Source of the DNA: Bacteroidia bacterium
GTDB lineage: Bacteria; Bacteroidota; Bacteroidia; J057
NCBI GenBank assembly: GCA_030430205.1
Contig: JAUIGE010000008.1
Coordinates: forward strand, 124,001 to 188,000
DNA length: 64,000 nucleotides
Direction: 5' to 3'
Part shown: positions 28,592-34,261 of the stretch, in pieces
Layout: each line of letters starts with the position of its first letter
How positions within the stretch are numbered: the first letter of the stretch is position 1
Notes under the pieces: model-generated
Told to the model about the DNA's origin: nothing
The model's input: only the letters and a program-made list of their open reading frames with translations
Database searches by the model: none
Made by a program: the position numbers and the translations under genes

Positions 28592-29344
28592 CTACAAGCT
28601 ATTGATAAACTGAACTACATCTGCACGTTTGCGTGTGGAAACAGGTATCTCCGATCCGTCTGTGAGTGCAAGCCATCCGCCATCACCTTTGACAAATTCC
28701 TTCACAAAAGTTCCATTGACCAAATGGGATTGATGCGGGCGGAAAAATTTTTGCTCACTCAGGATTTTATCAAAAGCTTTAAGGGTACGGGTTACCAGAA
28801 GTTGCCGCTTGTCTTTCATGTGAAAAACAGTATAATTACTTGCAGCTTCGCAGCGGACAATATCTTTGAGCCATACTACATGTACTTTTTCGGTGGTATG
28901 AATGGCGATGCGATCCATTTTTTCACCTTCTTTTTTCTTCAGATGGTCCAACAACAAATCCACCTGCTCCTGCTGTCCGGCCTGTTGGTTTTCCTGAACC
29001 TTTTCTACGGCGGCTTTTAGTTCATCTGGATCTATGGGCTTAAGCAGATAATCTACTGCGGAAAATCGAAATGCGCGTATCGCATAAGCATCTGAGGCAG
29101 TTGTGAAAATAACTTTCGCCTTTATGCCACCCATGACTTCCAATAAGTCAAAGCCCGTCCCATCCTGCATCTGGATATCCAGAAAAACAATGTCAGGCTC
29201 TTCCTGGCGGATCACCTTAGCTCCGCTCAATACGCCCTCGGCAGTTCCAACCACCTGTACATCAGGGCAATAGGTAGCCAAATCTTCTTTCAGGCTTATG
29301 ATTGCCTGGGGCATATCGTCAATAATTACTGCATGTAGTTTCAT
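28592..29344 (-). CDS. LytTR-family response regulator
   Basis: This 250-residue protein has a receiver domain (about 1-125, phospho-Asp in PDIVFLDIQMQDGTGFD, the switch Lys in DYLLKPIDP) and a LytTR DNA-binding domain (about 145-248, CEAASNYTVFHMKD, FFRPHQSHLVN). It receives phosphate from the propeller kinase encoded 24 bp upstream in the same operon. LytTR proteins bind direct repeats in target promoters. The targets are not visible here. Confidence 0.94.
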   Translation of the reverse strand: MKLHAVIIDDMPQAIISLKEDLATYCPDVQVVGTAEGVLSGAKVIRQEEPDIVFLDIQMQDGTGFDLLEVMGGIKAKVIFTTASDAYAIRAFRFSAVDYLLKPIDPDELKAAVEKVQENQQAGQQEQVDLLLDHLKKKEGEKMDRIAIHTTEKVHVVWLKDIVRCEAASNYTVFHMKDKRQLLVTRTLKAFDKILSEQKFFRPHQSHLVNGTFVKEFVKGDGGWLALTDGSEIPVSTRKRADVVQFINSL

Positions 29345-29368
29345 ATTGCTATTTTGTGTTTTGTGTTT

Positions 29369-32300
29369 TTACCAATCTTCTACCCAGGGTATCCGGATAA
29401 CAACCTCCGTCCCTTCGGGCTTGCCTGATTTATCATATAAATCTTTGATTTCCAGACCAGAGCTGCCTGCGCCCTTTTTTCCTGCCATCATATTCAATCT
29501 TTCCTGCGTGACCAGCAAAGCGGTAGATTTATGCCCCGGAACACGGTGCTTTTCCACCAATCTTGCCTTTTCGCGGCCAATACCGTTATCCCTGATGGTA
29601 CAAATCAGGCTTTCATTTTCCAGTTCAAAGCGCAACTCAATCCTCCCTTTTCGTTCCTCCAGGTGGTTTATTCCATGGATGATGGCATTTTCAACAAAAG
29701 GCTGGATGAGCATCGGAGGCACAAGGGTTTCATCAGGATTGAGTTTTTCATCTGTTTGAATAACATATTCAAATTTTTCGCCTCCACAAAAGCGTTCCAG
29801 GTCCAGGTAAACCTGCAGGCTTTCGATTTCTCTTTCCAGTGAAATCTGAGCTTCACGGGAGTTTTCCAAAACCCTTCGCATCAATTTGGAAAATTTGGCG
29901 AGGTAATAACGCGCCGCTTTTGTATCCTGAGTGGCTATCAGTCCCTGAATAGAATTCAGGGCATTGAAGATGAAGTGGGGATTCATCTGGAGACGCAGGG
30001 CCTTCTGCTCGAGTTCGAGCATGGCATTTTCCAACTCCAGCCGCTGCTGCTGAGCGCGGGCTTTGCTCCTCACCTGGTTGATTCGAAATCGGATAAAAAG
30101 AGAAATAAGCAGAATCGCCAGCCCAATGAGGGCCATGATAAACCACCATTCCTGCCAGAAGGGATGAGATATTTCAACGATGGGGGTGCTTTGAACTTGT
30201 GACCAAATACCATCTTCATTGACCGCTTTGAGTTGAAAGCGGTAGGAGCCCGGCGGCAGGTTGCTGTAAGTTGCACTCGTTTTATCAGAAGCGGGAGACC
30301 ATTTGGGCTCGATCCCCAAAAGCCGCCATTGATACCGGACCTGCTCGGGATTGGGGTGGTTGATGCCTATAAAATCAAAACCCAAATGGTTTTGGTGGTA
30401 CGGCAAGCGCAGGTCTTGGCTGAGGCCATGCTCCACATCTGCCCAATTCCGATAGGGCCCCGCAGCCAGGGGCTCATAGAATAAATTGACATTTCGGATC
30501 GAGACAATGGGAGCGATAGAATTTTGCAGTCCCTGCCCCAGATTAAAGCGCATCAAGCCCTTGATCGTCCCAAAATATAAGTTGCCTTCCCGGTCCTGGG
30601 TAACTGCATTTTGACAGCTTTCTGTCCCAATAAAGCCCTCTGATTTTCCAAAATGCTTGATTTCAATGATGTCAGCATTTTCATCCAGCGTAGCCCTGTC
30701 TACCCCCCTGTTATTGCCAATCCACAAATATCCCATGGCATCCACTTCCAGGAAATAGGTAGGCCCAATGGTCAAATTATCTTTGAAAATTTTGCGGGGA
30801 AAAGTATCCGAAGGCGCATATATATCCAGCCTAACGACACCTCCGCCTTCTGTCCCGACCCAAAGATGCCCCTGCTCATCTTCTGTCAGTGACCGGATGG
30901 TTTGTAAATTTCCATCATTTCCCAGGTCGATAAAAACAAGGATAGAATCTGACCGGATATAGCCCAGACCTTGTCTGACGGAACCAAACCACAGGCGATT
31001 CCATTTGTCTACATGCAGGCTATTGATGCGATCAGGACAGTTCAGGGTTTCCGTATATCGCTTATAGCGATAGATGTATTGGTTGGTGTCGACTGGCGTC
31101 ATGCGGCAGATGCCTCCGCCTGCGGTGGCTACATATAGCTTGCCGGAGGCATCTTCTTCCATGTCACGGATCCAATTGCTGCCAAGGCCATCACTGGCTG
31201 AAAAATTCAGCAGGCTATCGCTATCATAGCGAAAAAGCCCCCCTCCATCTGTCCCTATCCAGATTTGTCCCTTCCTGTCTTCAAAGAGTTGCTTGACCTT
31301 CAGGTCTCTGAATCCATTTTTTCTGTTTAAAAAAAATACCGTATCAGGACCGATCACAGTCAGGCCTTTGTTGGAATTTCCCACCCACAGCCGACAATCT
31401 TTGTCTTCAAGCACAGAATAAGCCTGTTCCGAAATCCCCTGATTGGGGCCATACTGCACAAATTGCTGTCCAGCATATTTACTGAGGCCGCCTCCGGATG
31501 TTCCGCACCACAGTATCCCCCAGCGATCTTCAAGTAGGCAGCGCACATGGTCATTGGCGAGGCCATCATTTTTACTCAGCAAAGTCAGCACACTGTCTTT
31601 TCCGTTCCAGCGTGCCAGCCCCTTATTTTGGGTGGCTAACCACAATTTGCCCTCTTTATCAAAGAGCAAATCAAAATAGAGTGCGCCATTGAGTGCGACC
31701 TCTTCCTGAAGGACCCTACGGAATTTGCTTCCATTGTAGAGATACAGGCCGCTATTGTAGGTTGAAATCCAGATTTGGCCGAGGCTGTCCTCAGCAAAGC
31801 CTGTGAGTTGGGCTCTGCCCAGACTTCCGAAAAGGGAGGGATTCATCCAGCCGTCCTTTTCTTTGACCATCAAACCTCTTGGTAACGCAATCCACAGGCG
31901 CTCAGATTGGTCTGAAAACAGGAAGTTCGCTGCCTGGTTCATCTGAGAGTCTACCTCCAGCCATTGGTCCTTTTTTCTGCAAAAAATGCTTTTGTTGCTT
32001 GCTACCCAGAGCCTGTCTTCCTTGTCCAGGCTAAGGCTGGTAATGCTTAACTTGCCTTGCTGAGGCAAAGATACGGGCTGGCATTTCCGACCATCAAACA
32101 AGTCAAGACCACTACGGGTTGCGATCCAGATATCGCCTTCCTCATCTTCCAACAAGGCGTTGATGTGGTTGTCAGAAAGACCTTGTCGGGTGGAAAAGTT
32201 TTCGAATTTTTGACCATCAAAACGGCTGAGCCCCCCGCCATTGGTACCCAACCAAAGGAAGCCTCTTTGGTCTTCGAGCATGGTATATACCTGGGACTGG

Positions 32301-32407
32301 GCAAGTCCTTCACTTACAGAATAATTCTGAAAAGAGTATTGTTGGGCATGTAGGGGAAACCACATGCACAGGGATACAAGGAGGAAAAATGTGAGTTGTT
32401 TAAGCAA
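29369..32407 (-). CDS. Propeller/Y_Y_Y LytS-type sensor histidine kinase
   Basis: This 1012-residue protein has a signal peptide (LKQLTFFLLVSLCMWFPLHA), a large periplasmic sensor of about 13 two-component-regulator propeller repeats (GLWxGTxGGGLxRF-type, residues about 30-640), a Y_Y_Y-like domain (about 680-750, YRWRLLGIEPKWSP), one membrane helix (about 755-775), a coiled coil, and a His_kinase domain with MNPHFIFNALNSIQG and a HATPase with DNGIGREKA. It is close to SusR/HTCS sensors but lacks the fused regulator. Its partner is the LytTR protein 24 bp downstream. The start codon is TTG at 32407, six bases after a perfect inverted repeat. Many such sensors detect polysaccharide fragments; that is inference here. 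Confidence 0.92.
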   Translation of the reverse strand: MLKQLTFFLLVSLCMWFPLHAQQYSFQNYSVSEGLAQSQVYTMLEDQRGFLWLGTNGGGLSRFDGQKFENFSTRQGLSDNHINALLEDEEGDIWIATRSGLDLFDGRKCQPVSLPQQGKLSITSLSLDKEDRLWVASNKSIFCRKKDQWLEVDSQMNQAANFLFSDQSERLWIALPRGLMVKEKDGWMNPSLFGSLGRAQLTGFAEDSLGQIWISTYNSGLYLYNGSKFRRVLQEEVALNGALYFDLLFDKEGKLWLATQNKGLARWNGKDSVLTLLSKNDGLANDHVRCLLEDRWGILWCGTSGGGLSKYAGQQFVQYGPNQGISEQAYSVLEDKDCRLWVGNSNKGLTVIGPDTVFFLNRKNGFRDLKVKQLFEDRKGQIWIGTDGGGLFRYDSDSLLNFSASDGLGSNWIRDMEEDASGKLYVATAGGGICRMTPVDTNQYIYRYKRYTETLNCPDRINSLHVDKWNRLWFGSVRQGLGYIRSDSILVFIDLGNDGNLQTIRSLTEDEQGHLWVGTEGGGVVRLDIYAPSDTFPRKIFKDNLTIGPTYFLEVDAMGYLWIGNNRGVDRATLDENADIIEIKHFGKSEGFIGTESCQNAVTQDREGNLYFGTIKGLMRFNLGQGLQNSIAPIVSIRNVNLFYEPLAAGPYRNWADVEHGLSQDLRLPYHQNHLGFDFIGINHPNPEQVRYQWRLLGIEPKWSPASDKTSATYSNLPPGSYRFQLKAVNEDGIWSQVQSTPIVEISHPFWQEWWFIMALIGLAILLISLFIRFRINQVRSKARAQQQRLELENAMLELEQKALRLQMNPHFIFNALNSIQGLIATQDTKAARYYLAKFSKLMRRVLENSREAQISLEREIESLQVYLDLERFCGGEKFEYVIQTDEKLNPDETLVPPMLIQPFVENAIIHGINHLEERKGRIELRFELENESLICTIRDNGIGREKARLVEKHRVPGHKSTALLVTQERLNMMAGKKGAGSSGLEIKDLYDKSGKPEGTEVVIRIPWVEDW

Positions 32408-32412
32408 AAGCG

Positions 32413-32440
32413 TAGGACTTTATTCAAAAGTAAAGTCCTA
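32413..32440. promoter_or_regulatory. Perfect 10-bp inverted repeat before the propeller kinase start
   Basis: TAGGACTTTA (32413-32422) and TAAAGTCCTA (32431-32440), with an 8-nt spacer, end 5 bp from the TTG start of the propeller kinase. It is either an operator or an mRNA hairpin that would cover the start. It is a poor terminator for the preceding thioredoxin gene because no T-run follows on the minus strand. Confidence 0.6.
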
Positions 32441-32473: not shown

Positions 32474-33100
32474 TTAGTCACCATAGCAAGCCTGAAGTTT
32501 CTTTTTCAATTCCTCCCGGGTAAGATTTTTCCCGATTACCTTCCTTTCTTCATCCAATAAATAAGTCGTAGGCGTTTGGTTGACATCAAACCTTTGAGAT
32601 ATAGGCGAGGCAAATCCCTGAAGATCAGACACATGTATCCATGGAAGGTGAAGGCTTTCGATGCCATTGATCCATTGGCGATGGTCTTCATCGACGGATA
32701 TGGCGAATATTTCAAATCCTCTTTCTTTATAAATATCATACAGTGGCAAAAGGTCATTGCAGTTTTTTTCGCTGCAGATATTGCACCAGGAGGCCCAAAA
32801 CTCCACCAAAACGACTTTGCCCTTTAAGTCAGATAAGGCACGGCTTTCTCCCTGTGGGCTTTGCATGACAATATTCGGAAAGGTCTGATCTCTTTCTATA
32901 GGGGAGAAACCCTTCCCTGGCCAAAGAGCCACAGCCGAAAACAGCACCAACAGCAGCATAGCTCCTGATATCAACCAGCCTCTACCCATCGATGGAGGAG
33001 TAGAAAGGCTGGCCTTCAGGCGATCCCACATGCCGTCATGGGGGTCTTCCCTATCAAAATCGGCCTTATTTTCGCGAAATAATTGCTCTATCCTGTCCAT
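32474..33100 (-). CDS. Membrane-anchored TlpA-like thioredoxin with anti-sigma-like N-terminus
   Basis: This 208-residue protein has a cytoplasmic N-terminus (1-40), one membrane helix (about 42-60, WLISGAMLLLVLFSAVALW) and a periplasmic TlpA/ResA-type thioredoxin domain (about 70-205) with the active site Cys106-Asn-Ile-Cys109. The N-terminal stretch MDRIEQLFRENKADFD...DPHDGMWDRL resembles the short sigma-binding N-termini of Bacteroidota ECF anti-sigma factors (FDxxxPxxGHxxRF). The start overlaps the ECF sigma gene by 35 bp, implying translational coupling. I infer a redox-responsive anti-sigma or coregulator. A plain disulfide reductase or cytochrome-maturation role is the alternative. Confidence 0.85.
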   Translation of the reverse strand: MDRIEQLFRENKADFDREDPHDGMWDRLKASLSTPPSMGRGWLISGAMLLLVLFSAVALWPGKGFSPIERDQTFPNIVMQSPQGESRALSDLKGKVVLVEFWASWCNICSEKNCNDLLPLYDIYKERGFEIFAISVDEDHRQWINGIESLHLPWIHVSDLQGFASPISQRFDVNQTPTTYLLDEERKVIGKNLTREELKKKLQACYGD

Positions 33101-33647
33101 GCCCTTGCTTATTTTTCATGATTGTTTGAAGCCGCTTTTTTGCGCGGTTGTACTGGGAAATAGAGGTCGAAACACTGATTCCCAAAATTTCTGCTATCTC
33201 TTTATGGTCGTAGCCTTCCAGCATATAGAGAGAAAAGACGCTGCGATAGCCATCGGAAAGTTGGTGCAGGGCTTCATAGGCATCCTGTACACTATATGGC
33301 CTTTCAGTATCCTGCCAGTCATTTTTTTGTTCCCATTCCAATTGGGATTTTTCGTCCCAGGGAACAGCCTCATCTTTTCTTTTTTTGAGAATATTGATTG
33401 ACTGATTGACCACGATGCGTTTAAGCCAGGCACCAAAACTGGATTCGCCACGAAAGCTATTTAAGCTTCCAAAAGCCTTCAGGAAGGCCTCCTGAACAGC
33501 ATCTTCGGCGTCTTCGCGGTTGTTCAGGATGCGAAAACTGCTGTTGAGCATCGCTTTTACATAGCGCTTATACAGCACTTCCTGTGCAGAGAGGTCTCCC
33601 TTTTTACAGGCTGAAACCAAACTTTGCCATGTAGATCGTTCTTCCAT
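33066..33647 (-). CDS. ECF-type RNA polymerase sigma factor
   Basis: This 193-residue sigma-70 family protein has region 2 (about 20-95: AEDAVQEAFLKAFGSLNSF, GAWLKRIVVNQSINILKKRK) and region 4 (about 125-185: YRSVFSLYMLEGYDHKEIAE, then a helix-turn-helix ending ISQYNRAKKRL). Regions 1 and 3 are absent, as in ECF factors. Such factors are usually held by a membrane-bound anti-sigma factor encoded next to them. Here that position is occupied by the overlapping thioredoxin gene. The target regulon is unknown. A TATATTTC-like element lies upstream but without a well-spaced -33. Confidence 0.92.
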   Translation of the reverse strand: MEERSTWQSLVSACKKGDLSAQEVLYKRYVKAMLNSSFRILNNREDAEDAVQEAFLKAFGSLNSFRGESSFGAWLKRIVVNQSINILKKRKDEAVPWDEKSQLEWEQKNDWQDTERPYSVQDAYEALHQLSDGYRSVFSLYMLEGYDHKEIAEILGISVSTSISQYNRAKKRLQTIMKNKQGHGQDRAIISRK

Positions 33648-33712
33648 TTGCTACCCTAATGACAGGACAGAAATATAAATATTGCACAAAGAGGGAAAAA
33701 TATAGGAATGGG

Positions 33713-34261
33713 CTAATAATTTATGACTTCGGGATAAGTCAGGGTAGCTTCATTGACCAGTACACTATCTCCCATGATGATGCTCCAAATAAAGGTTGCG
33801 GTGGAGATCAGCGATAAAAAGAGGAAAAGCCGTAGCGCCCATGCATGGGTTTGGGTGGTTTCACTTACAAAAACGACGAGGGGAATAAAATAGAGCCAAA
33901 TACTTACCCAAAAAGGAAGAAAGGAGCGGTGATAGGTAAGTGAATATTTTTTTTCATCTGAAGAAAGGTTCAGTATCCTTCCATCCAGTCTGCTGCGCTG
34001 CATGGTCAGCATATCTTTCTCTTCAAAGGAATGATAAATTCTTTCTGGTACCGAAAAGTGATGTCCATTTATCTTAAAAAAATAAGAAACATCCATATTT
34101 ATATCATCTTCTATGTGCCTTTTCCCCTGATCGCAATAGGGTTTAGCTTCCAGCTGAACTTCCTGTGTACGAACAGGAAACAAGCCGTGGGCAAACTGGG
34201 CAAGCCCAACGAGAGCTGAAACTATTGCAAAAAAATAAGTGGTTTTTTTGAGTAAAATCAT
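33713..34261 (-). CDS. Uncharacterised membrane protein
   Basis: I do not recognise this 182-residue protein. It has an N-terminal hydrophobic segment (about 6-27, possibly a signal anchor), a soluble middle (about 30-112) with one Cys and several charged residues, and two further membrane helices (about 115-133 and 142-163), then a short tail. The middle part probably faces the periplasm. It lies 65 bp upstream of the ECF sigma gene on the same strand and might share its transcript. It is divergent from the methyltransferase gene across 126 bp. Amino-acid composition is normal for a real gene. Confidence 0.65.
   Translation of the reverse strand: MILLKKTTYFFAIVSALVGLAQFAHGLFPVRTQEVQLEAKPYCDQGKRHIEDDINMDVSYFFKINGHHFSVPERIYHSFEEKDMLTMQRSRLDGRILNLSSDEKKYSLTYHRSFLPFWVSIWLYFIPLVVFVSETTQTHAWALRLFLFLSLISTATFIWSIIMGDSVLVNEATLTYPEVINY

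Follow-up and report, generated by a model that had tools for sequence, protein, structure and literature searches.

In a 64,000-nucleotide stretch of a Bacteroidia bacterium contig (JAUIGE010000008.1, positions 124,001 to 188,000; hereafter the window, in whose numbering coordinates are given), the gene of an extracytoplasmic function (ECF) sigma factor overlaps a second gene, whose product is very probably a membrane anti-sigma factor that carries a thioredoxin in the periplasm. The sequence comparisons make a strong case that the first ~34 residues of this fusion protein are a genuine sigma-linked anti-sigma module, for which binding of the sigma factor is predicted. The parts of the gene pair, with the evidence for each in brackets, are:

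33066..33647, minus strand: ECF sigma factor, 193 amino acids (open reading frame, ORF; Pfam Sigma70_r2 at residues 25-91 and Sigma70_r4_2 at residues 123-173)
33375-33575, minus strand: sigma region 2 (Pfam)
33129-33281, minus strand: sigma region 4 (Pfam)
32474..33100, minus strand: predicted anti-sigma/thioredoxin fusion, 208 amino acids (ORF, Pfam, full-length orthologue in a second species)
32999..33100, minus strand: N-terminal anti-sigma module, residues 1-34 (profile A4, sigma-gene context, predicted secondary structure)
32927..32977, minus strand: membrane helix, residues 42-58 (hydropathy peak and model helix)
32477..32887, minus strand: predicted periplasmic ResA/TlpA-type thioredoxin domain, residues 72-208 (Pfam, model, structural neighbours)
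32774..32785, minus strand: CNIC active site, C106-C109 (sequence and comparison with collected thioredoxin domains)
32759..32761, minus strand: third cysteine, C114, five residues past the active site (kept in the second species)
32486..32488, minus strand: fourth cysteine, C205, in the C-terminal helix (kept in the second species; model helix 195-206)

The 193-residue protein is an ECF sigma factor, in which regions 2 and 4 are present and regions 1 and 3 absent: a Pfam scan matched Sigma70_r2 at E 2.3e-15 and Sigma70_r4_2 at E 1.1e-14, and the NCBIfam model TIGR02937 (sigma70-ECF) was matched at 97.6 bits, its cut-off being 42.9. Both ORFs lie on the minus strand and share positions 33066-33100, the 35-bp overlap between a sigma gene and a thioredoxin gene that an earlier note on this DNA, made from its letters only, had described. 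That note had also seen a cytoplasmic segment of the FDxxxPxxGxxxRL type, one membrane helix and a thioredoxin with a CNIC active site in the second protein, and we recovered all three. The motif F15-D16-x3-P20-x2-G23-x3-R27-L28 is present in the segment FDREDPHDGMWDRL (residues 15-28), and the sole hydrophobic peak has its best 19-residue window at residues 41-59 (Kyte-Doolittle 2.24). Pfam matches to Redoxin (E 1.4e-15), AhpC-TSA (4.6e-14) and Thioredoxin_8 (5.7e-13) have their best stretches within residues 71-196, around C106 and C109, while residues 1-66 had no Pfam match at E<=1. An AlphaFold2 model built from a seven-row alignment (mean predicted local distance difference test score, pLDDT, 82.6) shows a confident thioredoxin fold (pLDDT mostly >90), a helix at residues 42-58 corresponding to the membrane helix (about 50-60), and two module helices at residues 2-16 and 24-32 (about 60-80). 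In the predicted topology the module would be cytoplasmic and the thioredoxin periplasmic.

The anti-sigma assignment is carried by comparison with relatives. Among 60 related genomes there were 21 matches to the sigma factor at 140 bits or above; two of them belong to the fusion pairs, in the source genome and in a second species, and behind 14 of the 19 others lies a gene with the same N-terminal module. A profile made from 15 N-termini, the window protein included (A4), has D16 invariant, P20 in at least 90% and W25 in at least 70% of its rows, and the fusion protein fits its consensus, E..I/F...R...D..EP....W.RI...L, with a module match at an independent E-value (iE) of 7e-18 (E 5.2e-17 in the phylum draw). 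Since A4 includes the window sequence, independent support comes from the module ORFs outside its 15 rows. In a search of 395 phylum genomes, A4 found matches at E<=0.01 in 126. We pooled 70 loci from this search, 30 supplied with it and 40 taken from listed rows with ORFs of ~175-300 amino acids, with the loci collected earlier, and at a threshold of iE <0.01 the pool held 96 distinct module ORFs. An ECF sigma gene lies directly upstream on the same strand for 95 of the 96, with a median gap of -4 bp and an overlap in 66 cases; the remaining one, at locus L061, has its start called inside the upstream gene and is thus miscalled. Some of the pooled loci had been selected by way of their sigma genes, so the fairer figure comes from those selected with nothing but the module profile: the 70 contain 68 distinct ORFs, all 68 with a sigma gene, and the other two loci (L174 and L175) repeat the places of L055 and L091. 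These counts agree with the proposal that place and N-terminus fit an anti-sigma factor, and conservation of the N-terminal segment beside sigma genes, named beforehand as the point on which the proposal could fall, was indeed found.

A further claim, that the protein lies outside the standard anti-sigma classes, held in part. At E<=1 the window protein matched none of the anti-sigma models in Pfam or NCBIfam, class I included. The module, however, is not peculiar to it but a widespread Bacteroidota anti-sigma design, and what is special is solely the thioredoxin borne on the outer side. Neither in the window protein nor in ten relatives did a Pfam or NCBIfam match to the module rise above cut-off. 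One of these ten, L119, matched NF052375 at E 1.9e-5 (24.8 bits against a cut-off of 100) and, likewise far below cut-off, PRK13920 at E 0.0041 over the end of the module and the membrane helix, and these weak matches make a remote link to described anti-sigma factors possible. A4 run against PDB sequences gave nothing below E 0.36 and no anti-sigma chain up to E 5, and the zinc site HxxxCxxC is absent from the cytoplasmic part, the first cysteine of the protein being residue 106.

What follows the module differs among relatives. Since only the two fusions among the 96 module ORFs have a thioredoxin profile match and a CxxC, a domain swap seems to have placed the thioredoxin on this design, and it is seen only in this genus. 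A Pfam scan of ten other module proteins found tails without a family above cut-off, several of them coiled-coil-like by eye. The proteins of L055, L092, L118 and L178 have the same module, a membrane helix and close sigma relatives, as does the fusion, but their outer part of ~110 residues, coiled-coil-like at the C-terminus by eye, contains no CxxC, no thioredoxin and, in those scanned, no Pfam family above cut-off. Other outer parts match CHU_C/PKD/SprB (T9SS/PKD; L098), VWA (L099) or, below cut-off, HEAT (L189), which suggests a mix-and-match family in which one module is joined to VWA, T9SS/PKD and HEAT-like parts. By eye, a short helix motif seems to be repeated at least two times before the membrane helix in proteins behind the ECF sigma genes of L106, L113, L126, L130, L131 and L133.

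The same fusion with its sigma neighbourhood was found in one further species, of the same genus (G001; the source genome is G000). Among the matches listed from 100 relatives, the G001 protein is a full-length match with 56% identity, and its gene lies behind its own sigma gene with a 47-bp overlap and with neighbours that differ from those in the window, from which the sigma/fusion pair appears to be a self-contained unit. Full-length fusions were confined to the source genome and G001 in two overlapping draws: 395 genomes from the class, each scored for 7 candidates at E<=1e-34, and the 100 relatives, among the matches listed at E<=1e-10. Either draw could have missed a fusion whose thioredoxin is more distant. 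A combined profile (A3) run against 395 genomes added nothing to this, as it reported only the thioredoxin part, even for the window gene. The two species share 93 of 137 residues in the thioredoxin part (68%), 14 of 34 in the module (residues 1-34, 41%) and 9 of 37 in the membrane and linker part (residues 35-71, 24%). The hallmarks D16, P20 and W25 of the module are kept in both, as are C106, C109, C114 and C205, the last two of which the earlier note did not mention, and neither protein has any further cysteine; as the fusion was found in two species only, this cysteine conservation rests on two sequences.

The C-terminal part of the fusion is, by its model, a ResA/TlpA-type thioredoxin fold with W-C-x-x-C and a predicted cis-proline. 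Its structural neighbours by VIA are 3fw2 (Z 21.1, root mean square deviation 1.9, 142 residues aligned), 4grf (Z 21.1) and ResA, 1st9 (Z 19.4), and Foldseek likewise groups it with 3fw2, 4grf and ResA; both lists are filled by the thioredoxin domain, the N-terminal part being outside their reach. These ResA, TlpA and Bacteroides thioredoxins have the same fold and the same active-site place as the fusion domain, and we know of none that is joined to an anti-sigma module. The fusion scores below the curated cut-offs of the NCBIfam ResA and TlpA equivalog models. In a nine-row alignment with ordinary relatives, CxxC, W105 and P177 are invariant, and a TPT stretch stands, by eye, at the cis-proline place. 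The active site itself is unusual. It reads CNVC in the second species, and among 95 distinct thioredoxin domains the residue before the second cysteine is proline in 85 and threonine in six, with isoleucine or valine in the two fusions only. A cysteine within eight residues after the CxxC likewise occurs in the two fusions and in none of the 93 other domains collected from the genomes. C114 lies at or beside the place of the relatives' proline, where the aligner opens a one-residue insertion for it. The active-site helix and the last helix of thioredoxins pack on one face, and a C114-C205 bridge is therefore conceivable; by this analogy we suggest a second disulfide.

Upstream and downstream of the pair two further elements were located:

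33657..33687, minus strand: probable ECF-type promoter for autoregulation, GTGCAATATTTA-N9-CCTGTCATTA (same box and spacing in the second species)
32413..32440, minus strand: 10-bp hairpin past the fusion gene, a weak candidate for the transcript end

The box before both sigma genes reads TTTGTGCA(A/T)TATTTA-N9-CCTGTC(A/T)TTA and in the window ends 9 bp before the ATG; by eye, GTCATTA and the spacing resemble the GCAACC/GTC-type boxes of some related sigma genes, for example that of L092. With a shorter box and up to two mismatches, G000 had 6 sites and G001 had 5, counting the two sigma promoters, as compared with 0 and 2 for a reversed control. From these promoter sequences self-regulation of the sigma operon is likely, and the pair is probably a self-regulated two-gene ECF sigma/anti-sigma operon. 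Two weak G001 sites stand, by eye, before thioredoxin-like genes; the likely G000 counterpart of one of these (L267) shows, again by eye, no such site, and they were taken as chance. The hairpin has a z of -2.1, with 5 of 200 shuffles folding as well, and the scan found 3 terminator-like sites where 2.0 were expected, so that it is about at chance level for such scans. Separately, by eye, a stretch common to the two species, TTTGCAAAAATAACGCCATATTGGC, lies upstream of TlpA-like lipoprotein genes at L272 and L274 and is possibly another promoter or operator.

For the way in which such a protein would work, we infer sigma binding, redox input, the direction of the switch and the mode of release as follows. 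Two short helices within ~34 residues would hold the sigma factor in the cytoplasm as part of a single-pass inner-membrane protein, and the periplasmic ResA-like thioredoxin, standing in place of the coiled-coil-like or other parts of the relatives, would be the input. At rest its cysteines would be kept in a single redox state, probably the reduced one, by way of the DsbD-type reductase encoded in the genome. The domain would change when C106-C109 become oxidised, whether or not C114 and C205 form a bridge, or when it enters a mixed disulfide with envelope proteins that are misoxidised. This would release the sigma factor, by way of the single membrane helix or through successive proteolytic cuts, the last of them by an M50 site-2 protease. 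The freed sigma factor would then transcribe its own operon and other targets. Provided that the protein is an anti-sigma/thioredoxin fusion, we think it rather probable that the redox state of the thioredoxin is the signal. The whole account, a self-regulated operon whose module binds the sigma factor and whose thioredoxin frees it on redox input, is our best explanation and has slightly better than even chances. We see the odds as balanced on the broader proposition, namely that a thioredoxin with CNIC, C114 and C205 acts as the sensor of a one-protein transmembrane redox switch, without a separate sensor, and that in many Bacteroidota one sigma-binding module is plugged to varied periplasmic parts.

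Several results weigh against this account. The fusion is confined to two species; the promoter box, allowing up to three mismatches, occurs once in the whole genome, at its own operon; and no redox-related regulon emerged, the weaker box matches, so far as checked, not being common to both species. Among the 19 close sigma relatives, four (L093, L094, L097 and L125) have no module gene directly downstream, and a fifth, L124, runs off the end of its contig. Distances between modules and between sigma factors are correlated, in favour of the account (Mantel r 0.625 for the 50 pairs with module iE <1e-9, the other 45 being left out; permutation maximum 0.271, 0 of 5000 as high), but the permutation keeps shared ancestry and joint descent of the pair would give the same correlation. 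DsbD_TM and M50 proteins are present in both G000 and G001; of 14 control genomes, however, 10 also have DsbD_TM and all 14 have M50, so that their presence says little beyond permitting the mechanism.

Other explanations were weighed against the same evidence. The thioredoxin of the anti-sigma factor might be an enzyme that reports its own workload, in which case substrate occupancy as a mixed disulfide, and not bulk redox, would free the sigma factor. A full active site with CxxC and TPT, best structural neighbours that are thiol-disulfide oxidoreductases, and a thioredoxin part more conserved between the two species than the rest of the protein all speak for such an enzyme; the NI or NV inside the CxxC, unlike the 93 other domains, 85 of them with xP, suggests a changed chemistry, and we consider this explanation unlikely. 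The same altered dipeptide, together with two extra cysteines able to form static bridges, would suit a thioredoxin fold that is a mere binding platform for a ligand or partner, its cysteines being structural (two disulfides) and not the signal; set against the invariance of CxxC, W105 and P177 across ordinary relatives, it seems to us quite unlikely. We regard as improbable a membrane-anchored thioredoxin enzyme merely co-expressed with the sigma factor, its N-terminus a relic anchor that no longer binds. The module is indeed conserved well below the thioredoxin part, and anchored thioredoxins without an adjoining sigma gene do exist in another family (L164-L169): in the ten loci L164-L173, which hold thioredoxin ORFs of ~170-200 amino acids from other families with, by eye, a membrane anchor or signal peptide, 0 of 10 pass the module test and 0 of 10 have a sigma match. 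Yet D16, P20 and W25 were kept while the membrane and linker part drifted to 24%, and neither the ORF list nor Pfam revealed another anti-sigma-like gene behind the sigma gene within the window. An artefact, in the form of a wrong start codon or an assembly error joining two genes by chance, found no point in its favour and is refuted, because in the second species the two genes stand in the same order and the fusion in the same continuous reading frame.

The surroundings of the preferred anti-sigma/thioredoxin operon were also surveyed. Downstream on the same strand, 66 bp past the fusion gene (28592-32407, minus strand), a 1012-residue protein carries 10 stretches of two-component-regulator propeller repeats, Y_Y_Y and His_kinase by Pfam, and is followed by a LytTR response regulator; this neighbour is probably unrelated to the operon because it is not conserved in G001. 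Directly upstream (33713-34261, minus strand) lies a gene for a 182-residue protein, whose only Pfam match is CD20-like and below threshold. The source genome has 39 sigma region 2 matches in 7.24 Mb, and by eye its sigma genes are followed by module anti-sigma genes, FecR-like genes, TPR-like genes and genes for other proteins. The CHU_C and T9SS domains seen in relatives fit a place of the source genome in the Bacteroidota. At L060 an ECF sigma gene overlaps, by eye, a mechanosensitive-channel-like gene in place of an anti-sigma gene.

Among known systems, the anti-sigma domain of RslA binds zinc, and that of CnrY, of class II, consists of short helices without zinc. The short helices of CnrY/NepR may resemble the predicted two-helix module of the fusion, with no detectable sequence relation between them when A4 is compared with PDB sequences up to E 5. 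To our knowledge, the known redox-responsive anti-sigma factors sense by zinc sites or by few cysteines. The redox centre of RsrA and RslA is the cytoplasmic zinc-binding anti-sigma domain, as opposed to the fusion, whose cytoplasmic part has no cysteine; both proteins are described as responding to redox stress (PMC4960319, PMC2877774). In the literature searched on anti-sigma factors and thioredoxins, with many subscription papers outside its coverage, we found no thioredoxin-fused anti-sigma factor. The anti-sigma plan is already known, and what is new is the thioredoxin as a predicted sensor part in two species. Such a sensor, if real, would tie gene expression to the periplasmic disulfide economy within one protein, and the thioredoxin half would be a ready-made, swappable sensor. 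For the module, a published account puts the share of Bacteroidetes ECFs with a class I partner at only 6% and gives other anti-sigma classes as one possible reason (PMC7406223); heading many Bacteroidota anti-sigma genes, the module is a candidate for part of this gap.

The nearest functional precedent that we found for a periplasmic thiol input is, by analogy, OsrA of Bradyrhizobium, the anti-sigma factor of EcfF. This protein, too, sits in the membrane and takes its input through a periplasmic cysteine, periplasm-exposed Cys179 being needed for the response to H2O2 (PMC3420878); it differs in having six membrane helices, a DUF1109, two cysteines and no thioredoxin domain. In overall plan the fusion is comparable to the Dma family and to Reo, anti-sigma factors of Bacteroides and Phocaeicola that reach the outer membrane and come, like the fusion, from Bacteroidota. 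Reo is the partner of the sigma factor EcfO and is reported to span all five compartments up to the cell surface (PMC13114119). Dma proteins go on with a lengthy tether that is disordered and end in a beta-barrel, where the fusion has a compact thioredoxin of ~137 residues instead. By its layout the fusion could be viewed as opening like a Dma protein and then having a thioredoxin where tether and barrel would stand.
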